27,902 nucleotides of DNA from the NCBI GenBank assembly GCA_015680635.1, contig JAABOA010000053.1, forward strand, positions 2,222 through 30,123, in the 5' to 3' direction. The position numbers and the translations under genes were made by a program. Of this stretch, positions 4,160 to 27,902 are shown piece by piece. The notes beneath the pieces were generated by a model. That model saw only the letters and a list, made by a program, of their open reading frames with translations. It did no database searches and was not told the DNA's origin. Positions within the stretch are counted from its first letter, which is position 1. Every line of letters begins with the position of its first letter. Origin of the DNA: Lunasporangiospora selenospora (taxonomy: Eukaryota > Mortierellomycota > Mortierellomycetes > Mortierellales > Mortierellaceae).

Positions 4160-7100
4160 TCATCCGTACCCGGGGTGAGAGGTAGAACTCGATCCTGTTC
4201 CTGTGGTCCCTGTGGTGGATCCGTTCCTGAGATGTCGCCGGAATCTGGAAGACGGCCGAGGATATCCCCCAGCATAGGTCGATTCGGGTGGAGACAATGT
4301 TGGCGAGGTGGATCCAGCTGAGGAAATAGATAATGATCGAATCGAACTTGGTCCACCATCGCCACCGTATCCACCGCCACTACTTCCATCTCCACCCACA
4401 CTGGCTGTAGCCGCTGCCGCTCCTCCTCCTGGCTCAATGTCCAAAGTCCGATCACTGTATGCATACAACATGAATTTGCCTGCCACGCCTGGATACAATG
4501 TCGAGACGACAATTAGGTAGCCATACTGATTTGGCAAGAGTGTGGTGGCTTCTGTTGCAACTCCTTGTGGGACCGAGGTATAGGGTCCAGACGAGGATAC
4601 TTCTCGGCCCAACACGCCTTCGTCCAAGCGCTCAAAGATTGTCACATTGATCTTTGGCATCGGATTGGTCATCTCTGGTGTCTGAAGCCGTACCCTGTTG
4701 ACGTCCCCACAAAAAGTATAGAGTCATTAGTTCCACTGTAGGTATTAGGCAGTAAGCAGTACACTAGGGGCTATCGGTTAACTTACATAAATGTGGTCAT
4801 TTCGGTAATAGTCACCAGGAAGTGAGGGTTTCGGGCATAGCCGATACTTTGATGATGATGCCAACCCATAGCGCTCACTCCCAAGACCCATTCACCTCTT
4901 AGTATCTTTTTGAACATTCCCTATAATCACGTCGCGTCAATAGAGCAAAGCATCAGTACAATCCAAAGATGTTACTTCTGAGGACTATTATGATCATGGA
5001 ACGGAAACAAGACTGGAAAAAAAAAAAGACTTACTGCGCCCTCTATTGGTATCGGCATGAGTGACAAGTCAATATGCGACTGCATCGTGATTTTGTATTT
5101 TCCAATTTGTCCAGGCTCAAATGTCGAGACCACAAGGGTATACTGCCCAGCTATTGAATATTTGGAAATCAAAATACAGAGAACCAGAAGCGTAAAGGTC
5201 AATACGGAGTGAGCGAGAAAACACCCGCAACACAATAGCAAAAGATATGTGAAATAAACATACGCCGCAGGTCCGGCGCTTCACAGTAGCAGAACCCATG
5301 CCGATACTCTCCTGACTGAGCGACAATATCCTTGGTCCATACACTAGAGAGGTGATAAAAGAAAAGAGTTAGTGATAACACTTGACCCATGGAGAGGTCG
5401 CAGTATTTAAGTCGTGTTTCTCATGTACCATGAAATGCGCTTGCCCTGAGAGTTCACAAGCTGAACGTGAGATGCAAGGTCCTTGGGTGATTCCATCATA
5501 AATAGAACAGAGGTTGTGGTTTGTGGCGCGGGCAGAACAGGGACAACAAGGCGATACTGGGGGTTGTTCATGAATCCTGCGTGGTAACTATTTCCTCCTG
5601 CCGTTTCTCTAGTCCATTCTCCGTCAATCTAAGGCGAGACGAAGAAAAGAAGTTATTAGAGCGACTAGAGCAGATATGGGGGCACACCAAGTTAACATTT
5701 TCATCATAGGACGCAAGAATTTACCTTCTTCTCTATAGGATATTTGTTGGGTATCTCTCGCATCTCGAACTCACAGATTGCATAGGCTCTTAGGGTAAAG
5801 TGGAGATCTCTTGTCTTGAGGTGTTGTGACAGGACAATGGTGTATTCGTTCTGTCCTGGTGGTACCTCGAAGCGGACTAAAATATGCGGACTGTTGACGT
5901 ACATGCCCTTGATCAGAGTGTTGCCTTCGTAATAAATCCGGGTGCCAATACGGCCAGGATCCGAGACTTGTAGGAGCGACGCGCTTGACTTTTGAGACTT
6001 GAGCGAGCCTGGGGTCTTTGGGAGGGGCGTTGTCGATATCGAAGGTGACGAAGTTGCCGAGCCAGGGGTGACTGGTGGAGGTGAAAGTAGCAATGAAGTG
6101 TAGCCGGGCTGTTTTTTGACGTCAAAGACATGAAGGGTAATATAGTCGCGGTTTTCTTCTGTAACAGTTACGTGCTTTGACAGTAATAGCCAGATAAAGC
6201 AAGGTCGAGTACCCTTCACATTTGTAAAGAGTGAGAATTGAGGATTATATCCGAGAGTGTACTTGTCCTGTTTCGGGCCATGGTTCCATGGCCATGGGCT
6301 ATTTTGAATCATGGTATCATGAATTAAGTTCCTAATACTGATTAGTACTCATTGTCGCCAAGGATGAACGTGTGATCCGAGAAAAATTAAATACAAAGGA
6401 GTAGCCTTTCTGTAAGAAAACAAGTGGCGAGTGCATAACCTGCTTTTGTCGGGCAACTTACGCGTGAATAACGGCTCGATAAGTTAGCGTTTCCAGGTTC
6501 CAGTTTATATGAATAGTATCGAAGTTGGAACACACAGAATCGTAATCAATCCAGAAAATGCCATCATCGTTTTTGAGCGCTGCAAACTGGTCATAGTTGA
6601 GTTCGTTCTTCAGTTCCTCGGTCCAATGTTCGGCATCCAGATGACTGAAGGGTCCCTTCCATCTCTTGTGGCTCCATGGGTTTTTGACTTGTAACAGGCG
6701 AAGACCCTGTACCTCTTTAAGCTCAAGTACTGCATAGGCGTGAGTCGGTACAAGGCCCATCTGGTCTGCAACTTCATCCGACATTTGTCCTGTGGCAATA
6801 GTAACGAGCGCCACACCTAAAAAAAAAAAAAAGGTAACGGTTACCATTTCCGGATGCGATATGAATGTCAGAAGTCAGGCGGACTCGGTCATCTTCGGTC
6901 ATAGTATTCCTGAAAAGGGTTCTTACCATTGCGCATTCCACTCATCATTCGTTTCCACTGCTTCTCTTTGTCAAAGTTGGCCTCATTAATAAAGATATGT
7001 TCAGGAATCCAACCAGTGAGTGCGCTAGACATAGGGTAAAGGCACCAAGTACATTCCACCGTGTAGTGGCAGGTAATGTGAATATTAGTCGTGTTTTCCA

Positions 7101-9335
7101 GCACAAGTTGTACTAGAAATAGAACCAGGAACTCAATTCTTTGACCTACTAAAGATCAATGCCGGAATTGGAGCCTGGAAAGTCGTAGCCTCCCATTAGC
7201 TTCATGTAGGCTTTCTCTACAATACTTGGCCAAAGCTCGTTCTTGTTGGTGGAGAACGTGCACATCAGGGTCCCTGACTTGGACACTGGAAGGTAGTCAT
7301 CCACAACTATTTGTAGTTGCGGAGAAAAATAAATCCCGAAAGAACCGGTTCAATAGAGAAGTGAGTAAAAGTCAGAGATGATGGAGTACCAGAAAGCTGT
7401 AAAAAACACCAGGTATTTCCCTCTCATAAATCCATACCAACACGTCGTGCAATGCCATTGAAGGTAAGCTTTACAAGGTATTTCCCGTGGGGGTTATAAC
7501 ATGGCTCGCCAAACTTGTTCTTTGGGTATATACAGGCTCGGATGAGCTAAAATAATGGAGTGGCGATGTTGAACGGTAAATAAGCATTAGAAATGCTGTC
7601 TCAAATGAATGATGTCCACAAGTAGCCTTGCCAGCAGTCCTCAACAAGTTCACTGTTCATATAACCGCATAAAGACAAACCTGTTTCTTCCACCGGCGTT
7701 CGTAGCTTGCACTGACACAAAGACTGGCGACAAACGAGCAGTCTGTCACAATATCCTGAACAATACTCGTGCTTGATATCAAACAAATCATTTTTGGGTT
7801 TTCCATAATCTGGGAGACTCGCCTCCAGGACCCAAACTTGGCAGTTTGTTTCTTTGATAATGCCAACATGCCGTCTGGATCGGTGAATGGGCCTTTCTCT
7901 CGCAAGATATCTTTGACATCCGAGTCACTCCAAGGATGATATTTCTTGTTGTTAATCAACATGGTTGTTCTAAGGACCTGTAGTTCCTGAGGTGTCAGTG
8001 TAGAGGGTCCAGCAATAACAGGTGCTGCTCCTGGTTTCGTTTCTATTTTCAAAACGTGTCAGATAAATCGTTGTCAGGACAGTCAAAGTGCAGAGTAAAA
8101 TCATCAGTGCATTTGAAAGATCTCGAAAAAAAAATAATGAACGTGGTGAGAAACGTACTTGTCAAAGGCACTGTCTTGGCTGATATTCCTTTAAGATCCT
8201 CTGCCTTGGACATGACTTCGCCGAGGCGTTGCTTCAGTGCTTCCTTTGCCTCTCCCTCAGGAGCAGCTATGGGCACGAGTGATTGATATTATTTAGACAC
8301 ACCTTTTTCGTCTCAATTGTACAATATCATTAGACAAAGCAGTGCCGTAATTTTGCACAAATGGTTCAATTTGTCCATGCATTTTACCTTTCCATGCTTG
8401 CCAAAAGAGATCAGCAGAGTCGGTAAAAAAGTCGAGTGCTCCTTGTTCGTGCTGTTTGTCGCATTCTGCTACACCCTGCTCATATGCAAACTATTGTCAA
8501 GTCACCAGTTTTGTGAAAATATAGAGGCGAAATCAGGTCCTCATTAGCCATTTGGGAGTGGTCTAGTGCTGGTTAGCTGGATGATGATTAGCCATAGTAT
8601 AATACGATACCTGTGCTTCTTGGGCGAGTCGTTCATGGTCGGGTAGTTCTCTGATATCTTTGAGTGTCGATATACTGTCGCTTCGAGATTCCCAGATAAA
8701 TTCAGCGCGCTTAGAGTACTGATCCAGTTTTCGGTTGACAAGATCACGTTCAGTTCCTAGAGGTATCACTAGTTCCGATACAGAGAGGGAAGTTAGGAGA
8801 TGGTGTGAGCAGGGGAATATTCAGGGCAAAAGTGCAAACAATTGCTTGGGCACTAGTACTGACGTTTTAGCAGTTTGTTGAAAATCTATTCCAATAGAGC
8901 ACAAACAGCCAGTTAGAATTTTGTCCAGGGTTTTTTTGTAGTCGTTGTTATGTTTGGCTCCTGCTGAATAATACAACTCTTTGCAATTACGACGCAAGCT
9001 GAACATACTTCGCACACTTCACAGTACAGCAGTCGGGCTGTGTGATGGTCCCCATTCGTGTCCTCCTGTACGGCTTGGACTGCTGATGAATAGGCATCGA
9101 TATAGAGCTCAGGGATAGAGTCCGATCGATTGTGTGGGTCGTTTCGATGGGATCGATCTGGCTCCTGGGCAGACAAAGCCCTAGGTCCAGTGGATGGGGC
9201 TTCGATCGAAAAGAGCTCAGGGTCGAGTTCCGAGTCTAGGGCAGGATCGAGGTCGAGGTCGAGGTCCACGTCAATGGCTGCGTCACCTCCCGTGTTCGGT
9301 TTCCCTGAAGGCGTAGGGAAGGGATAGGAGTCCAT
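4160..9335 (-). CDS. palB: Calpain-7/PalB/Rim13-family cysteine protease
   Basis: Sixteen exons join without a break into 1141 residues: 9335-9009, 8885-8864, 8756-8611, 8490-8388, 8266-8159, 8042-7681, 7546-7438, 7306-7150, 7024-6927, 6816-6462, 6298-5725, 5628-5429, 5343-5264, 5150-5035, 4920-4787, 4694-4160. Order: acidic N-terminus, MIT domain (about 80-165), a second MIT-like segment (166-227), calpain protease core, then calpain beta-sandwich units (from about 600, 788 and 920) and a Gly/Ser-rich tail. The catalytic triad is intact: Cys337 (DIVTDCSFVASL), His503 (GLVPTHAYAVL) and Asn523 (VKNPWSH). In ascomycetes PalB/Rim13 is recruited by ESCRT-III through its MIT region and cleaves PacC/Rim101 at alkaline pH. 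That role is inherited from the family. A Ser/Pro-rich insertion lies in exon 11. It is longer than human CAPN7 (about 813 residues). Symbol by orthology only. Confidence 0.93.
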
Positions 9336-10702: not shown

Positions 10703-13189
10703 TTATGATACCCAGGCTTCCTTGGGGGGCATAATGACACAGCTCTCTTCGTCCAATAGACCCTGACCGATCAAGTATTGCCGCAGGTGGTCAAACAACT
10801 CCATCTGTTCCGAGCCCTTGAGCTTGATGGCATGCTGGAGAACAATTCCCACAGTCACTGCTGAGGTCTTGATGAAACTCTGATAATAAAGGTAAGAGAA
10901 AAAGCCCATCAAGAACTGGCAGTCCATACGATCCGTGATGCCTCCATGTCCTGGAATCGACTGCCCAAAGTCCTTGATCTTGAACGCACGCTTGAATCCA
11001 GAGGCGAAAAAGCCGCCAAAGGGAGCAATAAGACTGGCAAAGCAGGCCATGATGATTGCATGCCACTGAAGAGGCGCAATCATCACAAAGTTACTGCGAA
11101 GTCCCAAGTGACGGAGCAAACTAACCATCCATGGCTTCAAGTAATACTTCACGGAAATAAACACTGGGTTAGGTTCACAGGTCAGTCCACTAAAGGCAGT
11201 TGAGCGCAAGTCCTTGACAGGGCAAATCATGTATGGATATCTCATGAAGAGTGTTGCAAACTGTCATCCAAAAAAGAATGGTAGTCAAATGTTAGGAAAA
11301 AAAGAATCACAAAGCCGGGGATATGTTTGAATGGACAATGAAAGAGACGGCAAGCGTTCCGCTCACTTACTAGCACGCCAAAGACAATCGTCATAATCCA
11401 GCCTCCAACAAATCCTTCAACCGTCTTCTTGGGCGAGAGCTTGATAAGAGGTGTCTTTCCCCAGAAGAAACCAAAGATATAGGCCCAGATGTCGTTTGCG
11501 ATCACGAGCGAAACTGGAAGGAAGAACCAAATCAAGCCCTCAAAGATGTTGTTGATGATGAAGTGACTCTGGCAAACGACCAGCAACAATGTCATGTGAG
11601 TCCATGCAAACTGAGAGAACTGGAAACGATAGTGTCCCTTTTTCAAGTTGGCCACAAAAAACACAAAGCCTATGTCAGGAAGAATACATTCTCATTAGAT
11701 AAATGCCATTGGGGAAATACATCATTCGATTCAGGAAAGATACGATCCAAGAACACAACAAAAGCATACCAATAACATAGAGTGTAAAGGAAATGAAACG
11801 GTGGTGTGTCGCAAATGGAATTAGGAATGCATCCACGAACACTACGTGTTGAAAGTAATGAATCAAACTCTCTCCATAGAAAAAGTAGTTTGTGCTGAAC
11901 AAGAAGTACCTATAAATATGGACCATCGGAATCGCGCAAAACGGAGAGATGGGTCGGATTAATATTTGAACTTCAACCTAGAGTCAGTCCATGATACGGA
12001 TCGTAGATCAGTTCTCCAGAATTCTTTACCAATTCATGGTCCGGAACCAAGGCAACTTTTTCTCTCTGCTCGGTACGTTTGCGAGGTAGATGACTTCTTT
12101 GTAGACCAAGCCCTGAACAACAACAACCAAGAGAATCACAAAGAGCGGACCCGCTGCTACACAGGCAAAAAAGCCTCCGATCATAATAAGAGTCCATAGA
12201 GTTCGGACAGACCAATTTGCCCATTTTGCGCTCGCGGACTGGTCTGCCAACAACACTACTGACTAGGGAAGAAAATAATAGAGTAGAGTAGAATAGAAAA
12301 CAAAGAGGTCAGATAAGAGAAGGATGGTTACTCAAAGGATCTCTTTGCACTGTCTCGTCTTGTCCAGAATGCCTTTGGCATGCTTCGTATCAGAGCACTG
12401 GCTCTTTTAGAGACAAGGCATACGTTGGAGCTGGTGCTACCTCCATGCTTCCATGTCACTGTAGGAAATCCGATGGGTTTACTGGACTTTCCGTCCTTGA
12501 CTAGCAGTGGAATCGTCCTTTGGTGTTCAGGGCGGATGGCTGCCCAATGGATGGGGTGGGTGAGTGTCGGCGCTTGGCGTGACTTTGGTGGAGTCGAGAT
12601 CCTGAGCTCTTGACTGGTTGGTGAAGAGGCAGTATGCGTACAGCTCCCTTGCTCCTGTGCGTTTTCATGTGCATTTATCCTGTGATCACGCGAAACAGGA
12701 GTGAGCGGTTGGCGGGATGATCCATGTGCAACACTCCACCCACTGCTACTCACTCCCCCTTCCTCCACTCCTTCCTGTCCCCCAGAGTCGGTTGTATTTC
12801 CCGCCAATTTAAGCTGTAAAGAGCGATTGGGGCACTCAATTACAGCGGCATCCATACAAAGCTGACATCAATCCTGAAAACGCATGGGCCACATGAACAG
12901 TCCGCCCCATATTTGTAAGAATTCTTCCAGAGTTAGATCCTGACAACCACAATCGATCATTGGGGTCTGTGATTACCTCCTTGGAAGCGGGTGTTGCTCC
13001 AGTGCCATCAAGAGGTCCACTCGTGGATTCCTTGTCTTTCTGATGATGCTTTCCATTTGTGGCTGTAGATGCTGGTAATGCTACAGGCTGTTCGGGTGTA
13101 ATGACGTTATTATTATTGTTGCTGGTGTTGCTAGCACTGCTAGAACTCGTTGGCGGTGACCGCTTGGGTGATTTTGCTTTAGTCATCAT
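10703..13189 (-). CDS. CDS1: Phosphatidate cytidylyltransferase (CDP-DAG synthase)
   Basis: Makes CDP-diacylglycerol from phosphatidic acid and CTP in the ER for PI, PS and cardiolipin synthesis. Exons 13189-12977, 12262-12030, 11909-11770, 11669-11371 and 11260-10703 join to 480 residues. The N-terminus is Ser/Pro/Asn-rich and cytosolic. Multiple membrane helices follow, with conserved stretches RTMNWYFLFSTNYFFYGES, FATHHRFISF and LSPKKTVEGFVGG. The CDP-alcohol cytidylyltransferase signature KIKDFGQSIPGHGGITDRMD contains the metal-binding Asp pair. The first of the two adjacent ATGs is used; starting at the second removes one residue. The junction after exon 1 (GAG/GTAATC) is the least certain: the following intron is 714 nt, but a 60-nt phase-0 exon candidate at 12754-12813 would split it and give 500 residues. 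The catalytic part is certain. Confidence 0.92.
12754..12813 (-). other. Candidate in-frame cassette exon of CDS1
   Basis: Preceded by a good acceptor (GCTCTTTACAG) and followed by GTGAGT. It is exactly 60 nt, in phase 0 on both sides, and open (LKLAGNTTDSGGQEGVEEGG). It fits between CDS1 exons 1 and 2 without changing frame. It could be constitutive, alternative or unused. Confidence 0.45.
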
Positions 13190-14434: not shown

Positions 14435-17400
14435 TCACTCTAAAGTCTTTTCTGCCGCCCGCTTCAATGTTTTGTAAAATGCAACGACTTTTGGGTGGAC
14501 CATGACCTTTTCAGGATCAAAGTTGATTACTTGCAACCCTTCCAGAGATATCGCTCGCGAGAGTGCCACATAGGCTTGTCCTAGTTGGTATCCATTACGA
14601 TTCATAAAAGTTAAGAGAGTCAGTCCCTGTGAAGTTTGTACTTTAGCAAAGAGAGAGAGTGTGTGTGAGAGAGAGACAATGTTAAGCAACGCGCGCTTAC
14701 CTTTCTCAAAGACCTTGCCCAGGTCTACTCGTACACGTGGCAACGTCTGGCCTTGCGATTTATGAATGCTCAGGGACCATGCAAGGCATAAAGGGATCTG
14801 CGCTCTCCGACCCATCACCTTACCATCTGGCATCTCGATCGTCCACTCTTCCCTCCCAACTACCATCTCGCGTGAATGAGAACCATTCTCAGAATAGAAC
14901 CTCACTCTCGGCAAGAGCTCTCCAGGCATGTTCAACATCCTTCGTTCATCCTTGGTCCCTTGGAGATTGGTCGCTGGATCCCTTGTAAACTCAACAACAA
15001 CTCCAATACTACCATTGGCGAGTCCAAATTTGCCTCCATTTTGGTTCTTGAGAAGCATGACTTGGGAGTCAACCTTAAGTTCTAGTTTTGTTGGTGCAAT
15101 GCATTGGTTCTCCATCTTTTCCTTGAGAGGTCCACTATCCTCGGCTTCAAATGAAAGAATCTTGCCTTCCAGTTGAAACAGGAGCATATTGTTGGCCTCA
15201 TCAACTTGGCGGCGGAGTGGAAATCTATGTTGACGTATGGAATGTTGGTTAGAGCACGCTAGATGACCCCTCCCTCACTCTTTCTCGCTCCTGTAGATAT
15301 TCATTCAGTGGCTAATGAGGCAGAACTTACAGCTCTGTAGGTCGTATTCCGTCTTTGATCTCGAGGTTGCGATAAAGGTTTGAAAAGCACTCAACGGTCC
15401 AAGGTGACATTTTGCCGACCCTCAGCTCATTCAACATTTCAGCAAAGGCTAAAAATGGCCATTAATAAACAACTTTCTGGAAATGAACCACATACAAAAA
15501 AATAATCTCCCCGGTCTTACTTTGGTCCTTTTGTCGGAAAATCTGCTCCAGTTCAACCGTGTAATGAATCGTCTTGCTCCAAGACTCTGCCTCGAAACAA
15601 AACTTGGCTTCCTGTGTTCGACTCACAGGCGGAAGCTGGAAGAAATCTCCTGTCAAGACCACCTGGATCCCACCCCAAGGCTCCTCCTCGTTATTCCGCA
15701 CTTTTCGTGCCAGGGCCTCCAACTTGTCCAATAAATCGGCATCAATCATCGAAACTTCGTCAATAATCAAAGTCCTGGTCGATCTCCATCGCTTCTTGGA
15801 AGCCTTGTTACATATGACTTTGGTATAGAGCTCAGATAAGGGCGCCTGTCCTAGCCCTATCCCAGCAAAGGAATGCAAAGTACACCCTCTAATATTGCAG
15901 GCTGCAATCCCTGTCGACGCCGTCACCGCTATTTCTCGCTTCTCGAACGTGTCCATGTCGTCGTCCCAGTCGTCAGTGTCGCTGGTCGGTTTAAATCTCC
16001 TGCCATACCGAAGTCGGCGAATGAGCTCACGCAATAAAATGGATTTTCCTGTACCTGCAGATCCAGTGAAAAACACATTCTTCCGTTGATTGACCACCAA
16101 ATCAAGCACATGCATTTGCTCCGCCGAGAGGGACAACCCCTCCTCCGTCGTGCGCGATGGGTCAGCCGGTGGATCATCCGGTTGACCATACGATAGATCA
16201 TCCGGTGATTGAGTCCGCCAAGTTGACGGCTCTTCTTGATATGGAGGAGGTTGGTCTCCTACCGTATCGATCACCCAAAGGGGCATTTCATTCGGTTCCT
16301 TCTCTCCAACCTCGTCCTCGTTTGGTTGAGGGCTACCGGACGGTTCTATTTCTCTTGGCGTCATGTAGGTGGAAGTGTCATAGCTGACAGAGCGCCAAGT
16401 ACCAGACCCTGGAGACTGAGGTTGTTCACTGTCTCTTTGTACCAAATCAACGTCTGTCGATTCTCTCTCTACCTTTCCACTGTCAAATACGGCGCTGCTG
16501 AGAATAGGGTTCAGAGTGTTTTCAAAGGCTGTCTCAGGTCCCGTTACTGGCCGCTGTTCTTGGTAGTTGTTTTGTAGTGAAAGGTGTTGTATTGCTTGAT
16601 CACTTGTCCGAGGCTTTGGTCTGATCCTCCATACTGGTAGAGGTATCCGACTGAAAAACTTGGTGGTGGGTTTCGCTCTTGGAGGTGGACCGTACAACGC
16701 CGTTGTCCCGATGGCAGACGTGGGTTCAGGATTATTATTGTTGGTTTCTGCGATGCTTTGTTCTGCTGTGCCTGCGTGCGTAATAGACTTTGGAGGCGGA
16801 GATCCGTTGGTTTCATTTGATGGTGGTGCTGGTTCTTCAGAGTCACTTTCCAGTGCCACAGGGTTCTGAATAGACCCAGCTAAATTATCGTCTGGGCGGA
16901 GGAGTTTTTGTGACCCTGGCGATAGCTCCTGATCAGGCCCTGATTTGCGTTTTCCAAGAACACTGGGAACATCTTCGGCATCGCTATCTTCAATGGTGAT
17001 TACTTCATCTACAGCAAGTGTAATCTTGCCCTTGGTGTTTTGACGTTCGGACTCGGAGAGTGTCTGGTTTTCCTGTGGCAAGTCAAAGTCCGAATCGTAA
17101 ACAATCTCAACATCCGAATCCTTGTCCTGAGTCTGTTCAGAGTGTCTCTGGTTTCCTTGAGGCAAGTTAAAGTCCGAGTCATAGACAATCTCTATATCCG
17201 AGTCCCTATCCACACTCTGCTCTGGGAGTTTTTGGTTTCCTTGAGGCAAGTCAAAGTCCGAGTCATAGATAATCTCTATATCCGAGTCCTTGTCCAAGTT
17301 CTGCCCTTCCTCTAAAATATATGACATATCTAAAACAGATGTGTTCTCTTCGGCGTCAGATATTGTAGGTTCTGGCCTGGGGGTTTGCTGCCGTATAGGC

Positions 17401-18415
17401 TGCGATTTTTGCTCCCCTTGCTCTGATATTGGTTCCATAGTTGGTAGCCGTCTAGGCAATGTTGAAATTGAGACCAATCCCGAATCTTGACTATTCTTGC
17501 AGTCGGTCCCTATCCCACAATCCTCCATTGAATCTACAATATCTTGAGTATTTGGTAGACGTTGTGCTAGACTTGATGACGTTTTCTCACTCTCTTGGTT
17601 GCCCTGAAATGGTCCTGGCATTCCACAAATGGACAAATAGTAGTAATCGTCCCCAGACACCGTAACACGTTTGTAAAGGTCCTTAAATCGACAGTCTTCT
17701 TGACCGGGGACGCTATCTTGGGTGCGGCTTTCTTGCAGATTGGTACTAATGCTGAGGTGGGTATCATCTGAAGGATCTGCTTTGACTGATATTTAACAAG
17801 AGGCGAAGGGTATGAAAGAAAGTGAGGAAGTTAGAGTGGCTGCTCTAGTGGGAGAGTTTTCTCCGCAGACTCAGATATCCAACGGCGAATAGTAGTTGAT
17901 CGTACTGCTATTGTACTCAACTACTTACTATCTTTGATCGCGATTGTTGATGTGGACGCGTCAGTATTCTCTTCTTCACGGGTCGTCGATCCTGCTATGT
18001 CTTCATGTAGGTCGCTTTGTAGTTGGTCTTTTCTTGGGCTCAACGCTCTGGGCCAGATCCTTTTACATGTTGGAGGTGCTAGGGAAGGATTTTCTCCATT
18101 AGAATTGGTCTCTGTCGAGGAAGCATCCTCAGAGAAGAGATTCTTGTCTGTCATAATGGACATGTGAGGTCGCAATGGGCCTGATGTTTCGACAGTGAAT
18201 AGAGAGGCGAGCAAATGTTGTCGAGATGCAAGAATGGGGTTATCATTCGCTAAGGAGTACCCTGTGGTGGAGCATTGATCTCTCGATGACATCACTCGGG
18301 CCCCTTTCCGCTTCGCCAATTCCACATGGGTAAAAAAACAAAAAGAATCCACGTCTTTGGAGATGCATGATGTCCTTGTTCGCTCGCTCACTTCGAACTT
18401 TGTTGTTCTAGACAT
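14435..18415 (-). CDS. PIF1: PIF1-family ATP-dependent DNA helicase with SIM-repeat N-terminus
   Basis: A 5'-to-3' superfamily 1B helicase for G-quadruplexes, telomeres, Okazaki processing and mitochondrial DNA in the family. Exons 18415-17929, 17785-15521, 15448-15331, 15224-14701 and 14580-14435 give 1179 residues. About 700 N-terminal residues are acidic, Ser/Pro-rich and apparently disordered, with three 28-residue repeats (326-409). The helicase core is complete: Walker A GSAGTGKS (737-744), ASTGIAA, Walker B LIIDEVSMID (Asp838-Glu839), VVLTGDFFQLPP, FRQKDQ, SIHKSQGQTL and QAYVALSRA (1133-1141). An acidic insert (DTDDWDDDMDTF) follows Walker A. Two in-phase acceptors exist for exon 2 (17785 or 17776). 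The start at 18415 is the first ATG in an open exon; no clear mitochondrial presequence is visible. The protein is longer than yeast Pif1 (859 residues). Confidence 0.93.
17046..17297 (-). repeat. Three 84-bp coding repeats (28 residues each) with SIM cores
   Basis: Units at 17297-17214, 17213-17130 and 17129-17046 encode residues 326-353, 354-381 and 382-409 of PIF1. Each has the shape D-K/R-D-S-D-[I/V]-E-I-[I/V]-Y-D-S-D-F followed by LPQ-x-NQ. The nucleotide copies are similar but diverged. Confidence 0.92.
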
Positions 18416-18734: not shown

Positions 18735-23937
<5,203 letters not shown>

Positions 23938-24268: not shown

Positions 24269-26385
24269 TTACATGTCCCTCATATCCTCAAGACGACTTT
24301 CAACTAGTTGTAGCGTTGCTCGTGACGGCATCGGGAGCTGGAAATTGCCATGAGACAAAACCTCGTATTCTACAGGCGGTTCCTAATTTGGTAGACCAAA
24401 CATACACATTTCTGCTTTAGATGCCACAAAGGGAGCGACATGTCATCGATTCATTAAACCTTGGTCATGGTAACACTTACTGCAAAAGTAGGACAGAGAT
24501 CGACTGGGAGAAACTTGCCATGGTGTTCCGAGAACAGTGTCCTGGCATTTACTTCATCTAGACAAGGAGTTGAGCGATAGAGACGGAGGCACCATGTTGA
24601 GGAGTATGTCGAGAGAAAAGAGGCAAATACATGATGAATAGGAGCGGCAAGAAGTATGGTCCAAGACACTACTATTGGTAATCTTACTAGTATAGCTAAC
24701 TTCCATCTGTTCGAAAAAGTCTTTCACCATCTTTTGGCGCACCTGGTGTGCGTGGTGTCGGCGCACAATTTCAACAGTCATAGCCTCGTATGAATTGTGG
24801 AACTCCTCGTACCTTTCATGCATATAATAATAAAATGACAGACAATGAAAAGTATATTAGTAGAGAGTCCCAGGATTCGATGGATCAAAGTGCCAAGAAA
24901 GCCACGAGATGTTAATTCTAACCAGATTGCCAAGCTATCAAGCTCTCCTATGAGTCTGCCTGCTGCATCGATACTCTCTGCCAACTCTTCTGAATCTTTG
25001 AATACGCCAATTAACTGCACTAGATCGGGTTCAAGATTTTCAATTCTTCCAAAGAAATCTGTTGCCTCTTGATAGGCAGTTGCGTATTGATGTTCTCGTA
25101 CACTAACTTCTTCACTAAAACAAAATGGTAGACCTCAGCAACATCCAGTTAGAATGAACATGTATCTTTGACATGTGAGAGCGACATTAACCGGCTTCTG
25201 CATCTACCTTGTGGCCTTTACAAGGGCAAGTGACTCTACTAGTTCGCCGACAATTACCATGGCCTCAATAGTGTCACTATCAAGAACTGTGCATTGGGTT
25301 GACATATATATTAGTCGTTATTCAATCATTATAGATAACGAGGTGTTGATGCCATTCTATAGCTGAATATACCTTCTAGCTCTTCGCTCATCGGCTGAAC
25401 ATCAGCTCTATACAACATGAAAAGAAAGAGCTCCAAATAAATGGCCAGTCCAAAGATATACCCGTGTGAGTAAAAGCACACCAGTTAGTGATAGTACATA
25501 CCTCAAAACTTGAACAACCTGATCATAGTGATTAGCAAGAGAGACCAAGGACTCTGCCATAGTCGTGGTGTGCTGTTCCTGAAGATGCATCTTTTCTCTT
25601 GCGAAGGATATGGCAGAGTCATCAAGTGTAATAGCATTCATCAAATAGCTCTTGAAATCAGAACGTTGGTCCGTGAGGAAAAACACAAGCTCTTGTAGCC
25701 GTTGAGTTGTACCAACAATCCTTTGCATTCGCTCACTTGACTCTGTTTGTAACTGTTGAAGGCTGACATCATCCAAAAAGTCAAACAAAACTGTTGCTTT
25801 GGGATTATCCGTGCTATTGCTCGACGGATTCTTTTGGATCTCTTTATCGACTTTAGTGCTCCGTAGGTCCTTGAGCGCCTGATCCAACCGAGAAGAAACG
25901 CCCTTCAGCTCCCTTTGAAGCTCCTAGGATTGGTAGAGCATCAAGGGTGTAAGACAACAACCAAAACGGCAATTGGCCCTTTCTCTTACACTCCTTGGGG
26001 AACTTCCATTGAGCATGTTACCTTGGTTATCGTCATGAGCCCATTCAGCTTGAAGTACGCGATCCGCAATAGAGACTCAACCGTCTATTACGGCCAACAA
26101 AACGAACCAGACTTAGCATCGTCAAGAAGCTCGGGATTCCAAAAAGTCCAAGCAGTCACAACCACGTCCATTTGATGGTCCTCCACACGACATTACCATG
26201 GCCTGCGCTTTAATTTGGCGCGACACAAAGCAGAGCTTGGAGTAAATCTTTTCGATTTCATTTGCATGACCCTGGCATGCGTGGAGTTCATCGTGCGCTT
26301 GAGTACACAGCTGTTCCGCGTCGGAGAGTCCTTGTTTGGACTTGCTCATTAGCTCCAGTAGTAACGATCGAGCCGACTCATCCAT
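24269..26385 (-). CDS. ATG17: Autophagy scaffold protein Atg17
   Basis: Nine exons (26385-26197, 26084-26022, 25923-25502, 25407-25373, 25286-25208, 25114-24923, 24812-24688, 24557-24481, 24382-24269) join to 431 residues, a normal Atg17 length. It is almost entirely helical and coiled-coil. Family hallmarks are FDFLDDVSLQQLQ, MAESLVSLANHYDQVVQVLR, the VL-D-D-T-I-E-A-MV-ELVESL segment and, near the end, NARTLFSEHHGKFLP-VDLCPTFA followed by EPPVEYEV. Atg17 forms an elongated dimer that, with Atg29-Atg31 or Atg101-Atg13 and Atg1, starts the phagophore assembly site under starvation. Exon 4 is only 35 nt and phase-consistent. Identification rests on pattern and C-terminal motif rather than a catalytic site; the alternative is an Atg11/FIP200-like protein, which would be much longer. 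Confidence 0.85.
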
Positions 26386-27693: not shown

Positions 27694-27902
27694 AGCAGCT
27701 ATTGTTGCTGCTGCAGTTGCTTGCTTCTGTTTTGGTGGTTACAACTTCTGTTGTTGCTGCTTCTGTTGTTATTGTTGCTGTTACTGTTGTTGTTGCTTCT
27801 GTTGTGGTGGTTACAACTGCTGTTGCTGCTGCTGCTGTTGTTGTGGCTGTTGTTGTGGCTGTTGTTGTAGCTGCTGTTATTACTGTTGTTATTGCTGCTA
27901 TT
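27694..27902. repeat. TGT/TGC trinucleotide repeat block at the right edge
   Basis: Imperfect (TGY)n triplets with a 72-nt internal duplication: copies of TTGCTTCTGTTKTGGTGGTT begin at 27721 and 27793. On the minus strand one frame stays open from the edge as Asn/Ser-rich (NSSNNNSNNSS type) and another as Ala/Thr-rich (TTTATTTATTTAAAAA type). It could be part of a gene extending beyond the window or a non-coding microsatellite. Confidence 0.8.

Follow-up and report, generated by a model that had tools for sequence, protein, structure and literature searches.

Does the N-terminal tail of a fungal PIF1 helicase read SUMO? The question is raised by a PIF1 gene on the minus strand of the analyzed window (the whole stretch of 27,902 nucleotides of Lunasporangiospora selenospora DNA), the tail of which contains three tandem repeats with acid-flanked I/V cores, followed by a fourth core that resembles a SUMO-interacting motif (SIM).

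The PIF1 gene and its repeat array

The genome sequence covered here comprises 8.2 Mb in 475 contigs and is probably partial, and the PIF1 gene model was inferred from open frames and splice sites. In this model, exon 1 (18415-17929) and exon 2 (17785-15521) are followed by later exons that extend to about 14435. The end of exon 2 is supported by the relatives P0002 and P0010, which stop or diverge at the matching point after FRQKDQ, and an in-frame intron with a GTAAG donor at 14700 probably lies within the downstream coding frame. The helicase frame matches PF05970 (E 2.8e-42), contains the Walker A sequence GSAGTGKS, and is similar to fungal PIF1 proteins. As judged from these matches and from that of a later exon to PF21530, the gene product is a PIF1 helicase, with a PIF1 motor that includes Walker A and the Pif1 2B domain. 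The features of the gene are listed below, types A and B being the two paralogue types considered in the next section.

17929..18415, minus strand: PIF1 exon 1, residues 1-162, with ATG at 18415 and a GTAAG donor at 17928 (open frame and splice sites)
15521..17785, minus strand: PIF1 exon 2, the array-bearing N-terminal tail and then the first half of the helicase domain, with a CAG acceptor directly before 17785 and a GTAAG donor at 15520
17214..17297, minus strand: repeat unit 1, LDKDSDIEIIYDSDFDLPQGNQKLPEQS, core DSD-IEII-YDSDF, with DSDIEII at 17268-17288
17130..17213, minus strand: repeat unit 2, VDRDSDIEIVYDSDFNLPQGNQRHSEQT, core DSD-IEIV-YDSDF, with DSDIEIV at 17184-17204
17046..17129, minus strand: repeat unit 3, QDKDSDVEIVYDSDFDLPQENQTLSESE, core DSD-VEIV-YDSDF, with DSDVEIV at 17100-17120
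16992..17003, minus strand: fourth core VITI, then EDSDAED, a forward (hhXh) SIM pattern (translation and relatives' cores)
16947..16958, minus strand: LGKR anchor, invariant in 10 aligned type-B sequences
16842..16862, minus strand: PVALESD, a second conserved hydrophobic-acidic motif, common to both PIF1 paralogue types
16239..16250, minus strand: PPPY (PPxY), in the same 8 of 10 type-B sequences as the SIM
14435..15187, minus strand: downstream coding frame of PIF1, which contains the Pif1 2B domain (PF21530, E 8.1e-8); the model omits the middle exon of the interval 15187-15520

An SMC-family gene (SMC_N, E 7e-32; SMC hinge, E 5.3e-31) adjoins PIF1 at 18735-21514 on the minus strand. Other neighbours in the window, at 6458-8052, 10703-11245 and 25408-25887, are calpain-family protease pieces, a CTP transferase family piece and an ATG17-like piece, and the window ends in a TGT/GCT-rich repeat tract at 27716-27899 (e.g. 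period 72 with 84% matches at 27716-27878). Within PIF1, a short N-terminal stretch at 17607-17666, VTVSGDDYYYLSICGMPGPF, resembles VVINGETYQYIEGCGLPPML of P0009 and P0010 as well as TTVNGTTYDYIPGCGVPG of the type-A protein P0016, and is thus present in both PIF1 types. As for SUMO itself, two PF11976 matches above the cut-off in the same genome were rejected, both being ubiquitin on reading, and a yeast SUMO query of the partial 8.2 Mb sequence, with exons searched singly, returned nothing.

Tandem Repeats Finder reported a repeat at 17052-17296 with a period of 84, 2.9 copies and 81% matches, which translates into three tandem units of 28 residues at 17046-17297. Each unit holds S-D-I/V-E and Y-D-S-D-F. 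When exon 1 is joined to exon 2, the units span residues 326-409, with cores beginning at residues 329, 357 and 385, and VITI occupies residues 424-427, beginning 15 residues past the end of the third unit; the array and the fourth core are therefore real and located as an earlier note on this DNA had described them. The tail continues from VITI-EDSDAED to LGKRK and then to PVALESDSEE. Published SIM cores have the form hXhh or hhXh and are built of I, V or L, in many cases with acidic residues or phosphoserine alongside (PMC8616421). The array fits hXhh with preceding acids three times and VITI fits hhXh with following acids once, so that all four cores match the SIM consensus, as had been claimed.

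The array units are not fresh copies, to judge by their silent divergence: dS reaches 1.56-1.78 for the unit pairs 1/3 and 2/3 (dN 0.20-0.22, dN/dS 0.12-0.13) and 0.31 for the pair 1/2 (dN 0.13, dN/dS 0.41), all of these being rough values from about 16 silent sites. The raw silent and amino-acid-changing differences between units are 4.0/8.0, 10.2/11.8 and 11.0/13.0; when normalized to the number of sites, silent changes are 2.4 to 8 times as frequent as amino-acid changes. Within codons 4-19 of the unit, a block chosen after looking at the sequence, 3 of 16 codons are changed (I/V, I/V, D/N) versus 8 of 12 outside it (Fisher p 0.019). This conserved block extends through YDSDFDLPQ, beyond the length that a SIM needs.

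As a protein query, the array region gave no match at E<=10 among 460 candidates, and exon 2 gave none at E<=0.001 among 7992 candidates scored. Since the search words of the exon-2 query were its first 500 residues, ending where the helicase starts, this was effectively a search with the tail. Its outcome suggests that a closely similar tail does not occur among the proteins of 402-1280 residues in the set searched. Across the 8.2 Mb genome sequence, the array matched itself alone at E<=1, and the looser DNA pattern D-x-D-[IVM]-E-[IVM]-[IVM] occurred at six places, three of them the array (one place for the reversed-pattern control). A comparison of the array with the PDB yielded two chance-level matches (E 0.73 and 0.93).

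The array and the fourth core exceed chance in shuffling tests, which keep composition alone and use core patterns written after seeing the sequence. When the N-terminus of 711 residues was shuffled 5000 times with its composition preserved, no shuffle contained four strict cores (mean 0.054, maximum 2). Because tandem copies are not independent, the array was also collapsed to one unit, and of 20000 shuffles of this shorter tail 1.0% contained a strict core of the reversed type, 3.2% one of the forward type and 0.035% one of each. A heptad resembling the SUMO-one-binding (SOB) motif, [DE]S[DE][VI]E[VI][VI], which was taken from two human motifs and widened (I for V, D for E) to fit the window, appeared in two of these shuffles. 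The 118 usable PIF1 N-termini of 121 (window included), the relatives among which share kinship, contain 16 strict forward cores versus 0.7 expected (two sequences counted twice) and 5 strict reversed cores, 3 being the array, versus 0.2 expected; looser patterns are weakly enriched (forward, 14 versus 4.8; reversed, 10 versus 6.0). In a 200 kb background from the same genome (20 stretches, 75,382 bases masked as N), we found 2 strict SIM matches in 246 unmasked stop-to-stop frames of at least 100 residues, read in six frames and totalling 39,927 residues. No background frame held two strict SIMs within 110 residues (320 frames, masked runs included). This background is loose, because many of the frames are not genes.

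Type A and type B relatives

Of the 7992 proteins scored in the helicase-region search, 7094 reached E<=0.001; the best 120 of the 7094 were scanned by script, and 19 of them were also retrieved individually. Among the matches listed, the best E-value belonged to a Ceratobasidium protein (P0001, 47% identity), and the highest identity, up to 64%, to Mortierella-like proteins, including those of Entomortierella parvispora and Mortierella alpina. We named two types among the Mortierella-like sequences: type A, with 8 tree rows including one from the same genome (L004), and type B, with 10 tree rows including the window PIF1. A single branch (97/98) separates A from B in a tree built from 30 helicase domains, the 12 other fungal rows not being counted there, and type B need not be a clade. 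The window PIF1 forms a long row that is grouped with the P0012 group (87/80), its placement being unsure. At least one PIF1 of each type is encoded in the genome studied. Its type-A PIF1 (L004, 845-2500, G000:C249) carries PVMLESDSED, while the frames checked contain neither a strict SIM nor PPxY. A third PIF1-like match (L003) is weak, with 33% identity.

The strict forward SIM is present in 8 of the 10 type-B sequences, including the window, in the forms VITIEDSD, VIIIDGDD, VIVIDADD, VIVIDGDD, VVVIDLDD, IVVIDLDD, VIDIDDSD and VIDLDDSD; in the tree it occurs in the window PIF1, in the P0012 group and in the Entomortierella group. It starts 15-18 residues upstream of LGKR in the window and three relatives, and 58-64 residues upstream in the P0012 group, the SIM of which MAFFT aligns with the window repeats and not with the fourth core. 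On sequence grounds, VITI is likely the counterpart of VIVIDGDD / VVVIDLDDSDDD in relatives. Seven of nine type-B relatives have a SIM at or near the place of the fourth core, and two do not. The two are P0003 and P0014 of E. parvispora, which are also without PPxY. P0009, the third of three type-B proteins listed for this species, has both SIM and PPxY. A division of labour after duplication is possible among these proteins.

No strict SIM was found in the six type-A relatives that have an N-terminus (that of P0011 is too short and was not counted), and the six type-A relatives checked are likewise without PPxY, which occurs in 14 of the 118 listed PIF1 relatives overall. The motif P-h-x-h-[DE]-S-D is present in type A and type B alike. 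We take PPxY, here PPPY, to be a WW-domain ligand pattern, and as a guess its partner could be of the NEDD4/Rsp5 type. SIM-like cores also occur in other listed fungal PIF1 tails, namely TVIDLESS in Mucor, SIEIIELDDDD in Phaffia and DIPIVDLTS in Aspergillus niger.

The three-unit array itself was found in none of the nine type-B relatives, and the expectation that repeat number would vary among orthologs while the core is kept is therefore not supported. Because of this absence the array, known from one genome, looks lineage-specific.

SUMO reading and its alternatives

The match of the reversed cores to SIM and SOB patterns, the forward fourth core, and the precedent of CK2 led us to take the PIF1 N-terminal tail as a multivalent reader of SUMO, a reading that we hold to be moderately probable, with binding predicted from the motifs. 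Serines of the CK2 consensus (S-D-I/V-E) stand in the core flanks, as the earlier note had pointed out. CK2 phosphorylation in Daxx is reported to strengthen binding to SUMO-1 only, and not to SUMO-2/3 (PMC8616421); phosphorylation by CK2 beside SIMs is described as strengthening binding in ARKL1 too. Disorder prediction, which had been proposed for this tail, gave no helix or strand over residues 1-500 of the exon-2 frame, with pLDDT of 29-40 per 10-residue block. This low pLDDT is weak evidence of disorder, because the structure model was poor throughout (mean pLDDT 38.7 over 10 sequences). The SUMO reading of the earlier note thus retains the motif pattern, the CK2 serines and the occurrence of the fourth core in relatives; against it stand the absence of the array from all nine relatives and an RPA-binding motif, which had not been weighed.

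A mechanism for such a tail may be proposed as follows. One old SIM, VITI-EDSDAED in the window, would be common to type-B PIF1 of Mortierella-like fungi, and the window lineage would have added a reversed, SOB-like SIM (DSD-I/V-E-I-I/V-YDSDF) in three copies of 28 residues. CK2-type phosphorylation of the DSD serines could strengthen the cores, each of which would pack as a beta strand against SUMO. Multiple cores would favour SUMO chains or clustered SUMO on fork and repair proteins, and this preference could concentrate the helicase at fork and repair sites.

The strongest rival holds that the repeats are tandem RPA-binding motifs (RBMs), which would attach to the OB fold at the N-terminus of Rfa1/RPA70 and so recruit PIF1 to single strands coated with RPA. 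The unstructured N-terminus of S. cerevisiae Pif1 is reported to contact Rfa1N with LDLL, around which lie the acidic residues E64, D65, D71, D73 and D74, and the core of K. lactis Ddc2 is LELV (PMC11014909). WRN has a tandem pair of RPA70N-binding motifs with the same sequence (PMC10479964). IEII, IEIV and VEIV between acids share the h-acid-h-h form of LDLL and LELV, WRN offers a precedent for a tandem arrangement, and the RPA70N motifs, described as mixing acidic with hydrophobic residues over a length of about 20, suit the long block DSD..YDSDFDLPQ. However, the core hydrophobics of the window are all beta-branched I/V, whereas HelB, WRN and ETAA1 are reported to bind RPA70N as helices; not all partners are helical, since BLM peptides are described as kinked and part of RAD9 as extended. 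Mean propensities of the unit resemble those of SOB motifs and not those of a relative's helix-prone acidic segment, which is a weak comparison. In addition, VIVIDGDD / VVVIDLDDSDDD, the conserved core next to the repeats, belongs to the SIM type, and some relatives carry a separate stretch that is acidic and prone to form a helix (SVAELIEAAFADGEFLED in P0010) and could be an RBM. A search for the RPA70N family (PF04057) gave no match in the same genome, and this is uninformative because the control genomes gave none either. Cores made wholly of I/V, a fourth core of SIM type and the separate acidic stretch of some relatives lean towards SUMO, none of them decisively, and we regard the docking of these repeats on RPA as unlikely.

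Still less likely is that the tail does both, with the same repeats binding SUMO and RPA, or SUMO on SUMOylated RPA, as a two-signal recruitment at stalled forks: both partners are described as offering a hydrophobic groove with basic residues to acidic-hydrophobic peptides, and the pattern fits both, but dual binding is superfluous for explaining the sequence. Least probable, and in our view very improbable, is a minisatellite expansion in a partnerless acidic tail, tolerated since such tails vary freely; the array without counterpart in nine of nine type-B relatives, type-B N-termini that by eye are poorly conserved and in relatives such as P0012 and P0015 hold repeats of other kinds, and the similar raw counts of changing and silent differences between units agree with it, but the per-site excess of silent change and the core letters kept despite near-saturated dS in two of three pairs do not.

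Returning to the SUMO-reading tail, a bolder version of it, which we consider speculative and rather unlikely as a whole, would make type-B PIF1 a dedicated SUMO-guided helicase with an ancestral SIM and PPxY, to which the lineage added a tandem SOB-type array that perhaps reads a second SUMO face, so that the tail clamps SUMO chains from two sides. If so, type-B PIF1 would stand beside Srs2 and Sgs1 as a SUMO-guided helicase from the PIF1 family.

Comparison with known systems

Recruitment of yeast PIF1 to stalled forks, breaks and telomeres is reported to involve RPA and PCNA, while Srs2, by contrast, relies on SUMOylated PCNA (PMC11014909). Further background sources are PMC10542384, PMC11806350, PMC4911932, PMC7073672, PMC6628001 and PMC8161396. 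SIM arrays as such, and SIMs in helicase-type motors, are already known from RNF4, RNF111, Sgs1/BLM and PICH. Among the open-licence papers listed, no title or abstract opening names a SIM in a PIF1 helicase, although a report of one may exist.

The N-terminus of S. cerevisiae Pif1 and the tandem motifs of WRN resemble the window tail, the former in an acid-flanked h-acid-h-h core and the latter in being tandem in a helicase. However, the excerpts describe the Pif1 motif as L-rich and that of WRN as helical, whereas the window cores consist of I/V only. In Sgs1/BLM (two SIMs) and PICH (three), SIMs are reported to guide the motor, be it helicase or translocase, to partners that carry SUMO; unlike the window protein, these belong to the RecQ family and to the PICH translocase and not to PIF1, and in the excerpts their SIMs are not described as tandem repeats. 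RNF4, a reader of poly-SUMO with four adjacent SIMs, is alike in having several SIM-like cores closely spaced, but it is a ubiquitin ligase, whereas the window encodes a helicase with a fixed 28-residue tandem repeat and reversed cores.

The closest likeness is to the SOB motif of RNF111/Arkadia, ARKL1 and DPP9. The motifs of RNF111 (DSEVEIVTV) and DPP9 (ESEVEVIHV) are said to fit anti-parallel SIM patterns well (PMC12751080, PMC6695498), and the window repeats (DSDVEIVYD, DSDIEIVYD) nearly match these human motifs in an acid-S-acid triplet followed by V/I-E-I/V-V/I. The context is similar as well, since the excerpts on RNF111 describe a SOB motif combined with further SIMs in one stretch, as in the window tail. 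Unlike these proteins, the window has three copies, in a helicase and in a fungus. The specificity of SOB for SUMO1 is reported to depend on His75, and the window repeats are SOB-like in sequence. What appears new is the putative tandem SOB-like array, together with the candidate type-B SIM and its accompanying PPxY. If the reading is correct, a PIF1 that combines a conserved SIM with an array of repeated SIMs would place PIF1 under SUMO control in some fungi. A 2025 review leaves open whether SOB-like motifs bind SUMO in the groove used by SIMs or on a different face (PMC12751080), and for this question the array would be a natural tandem construct.
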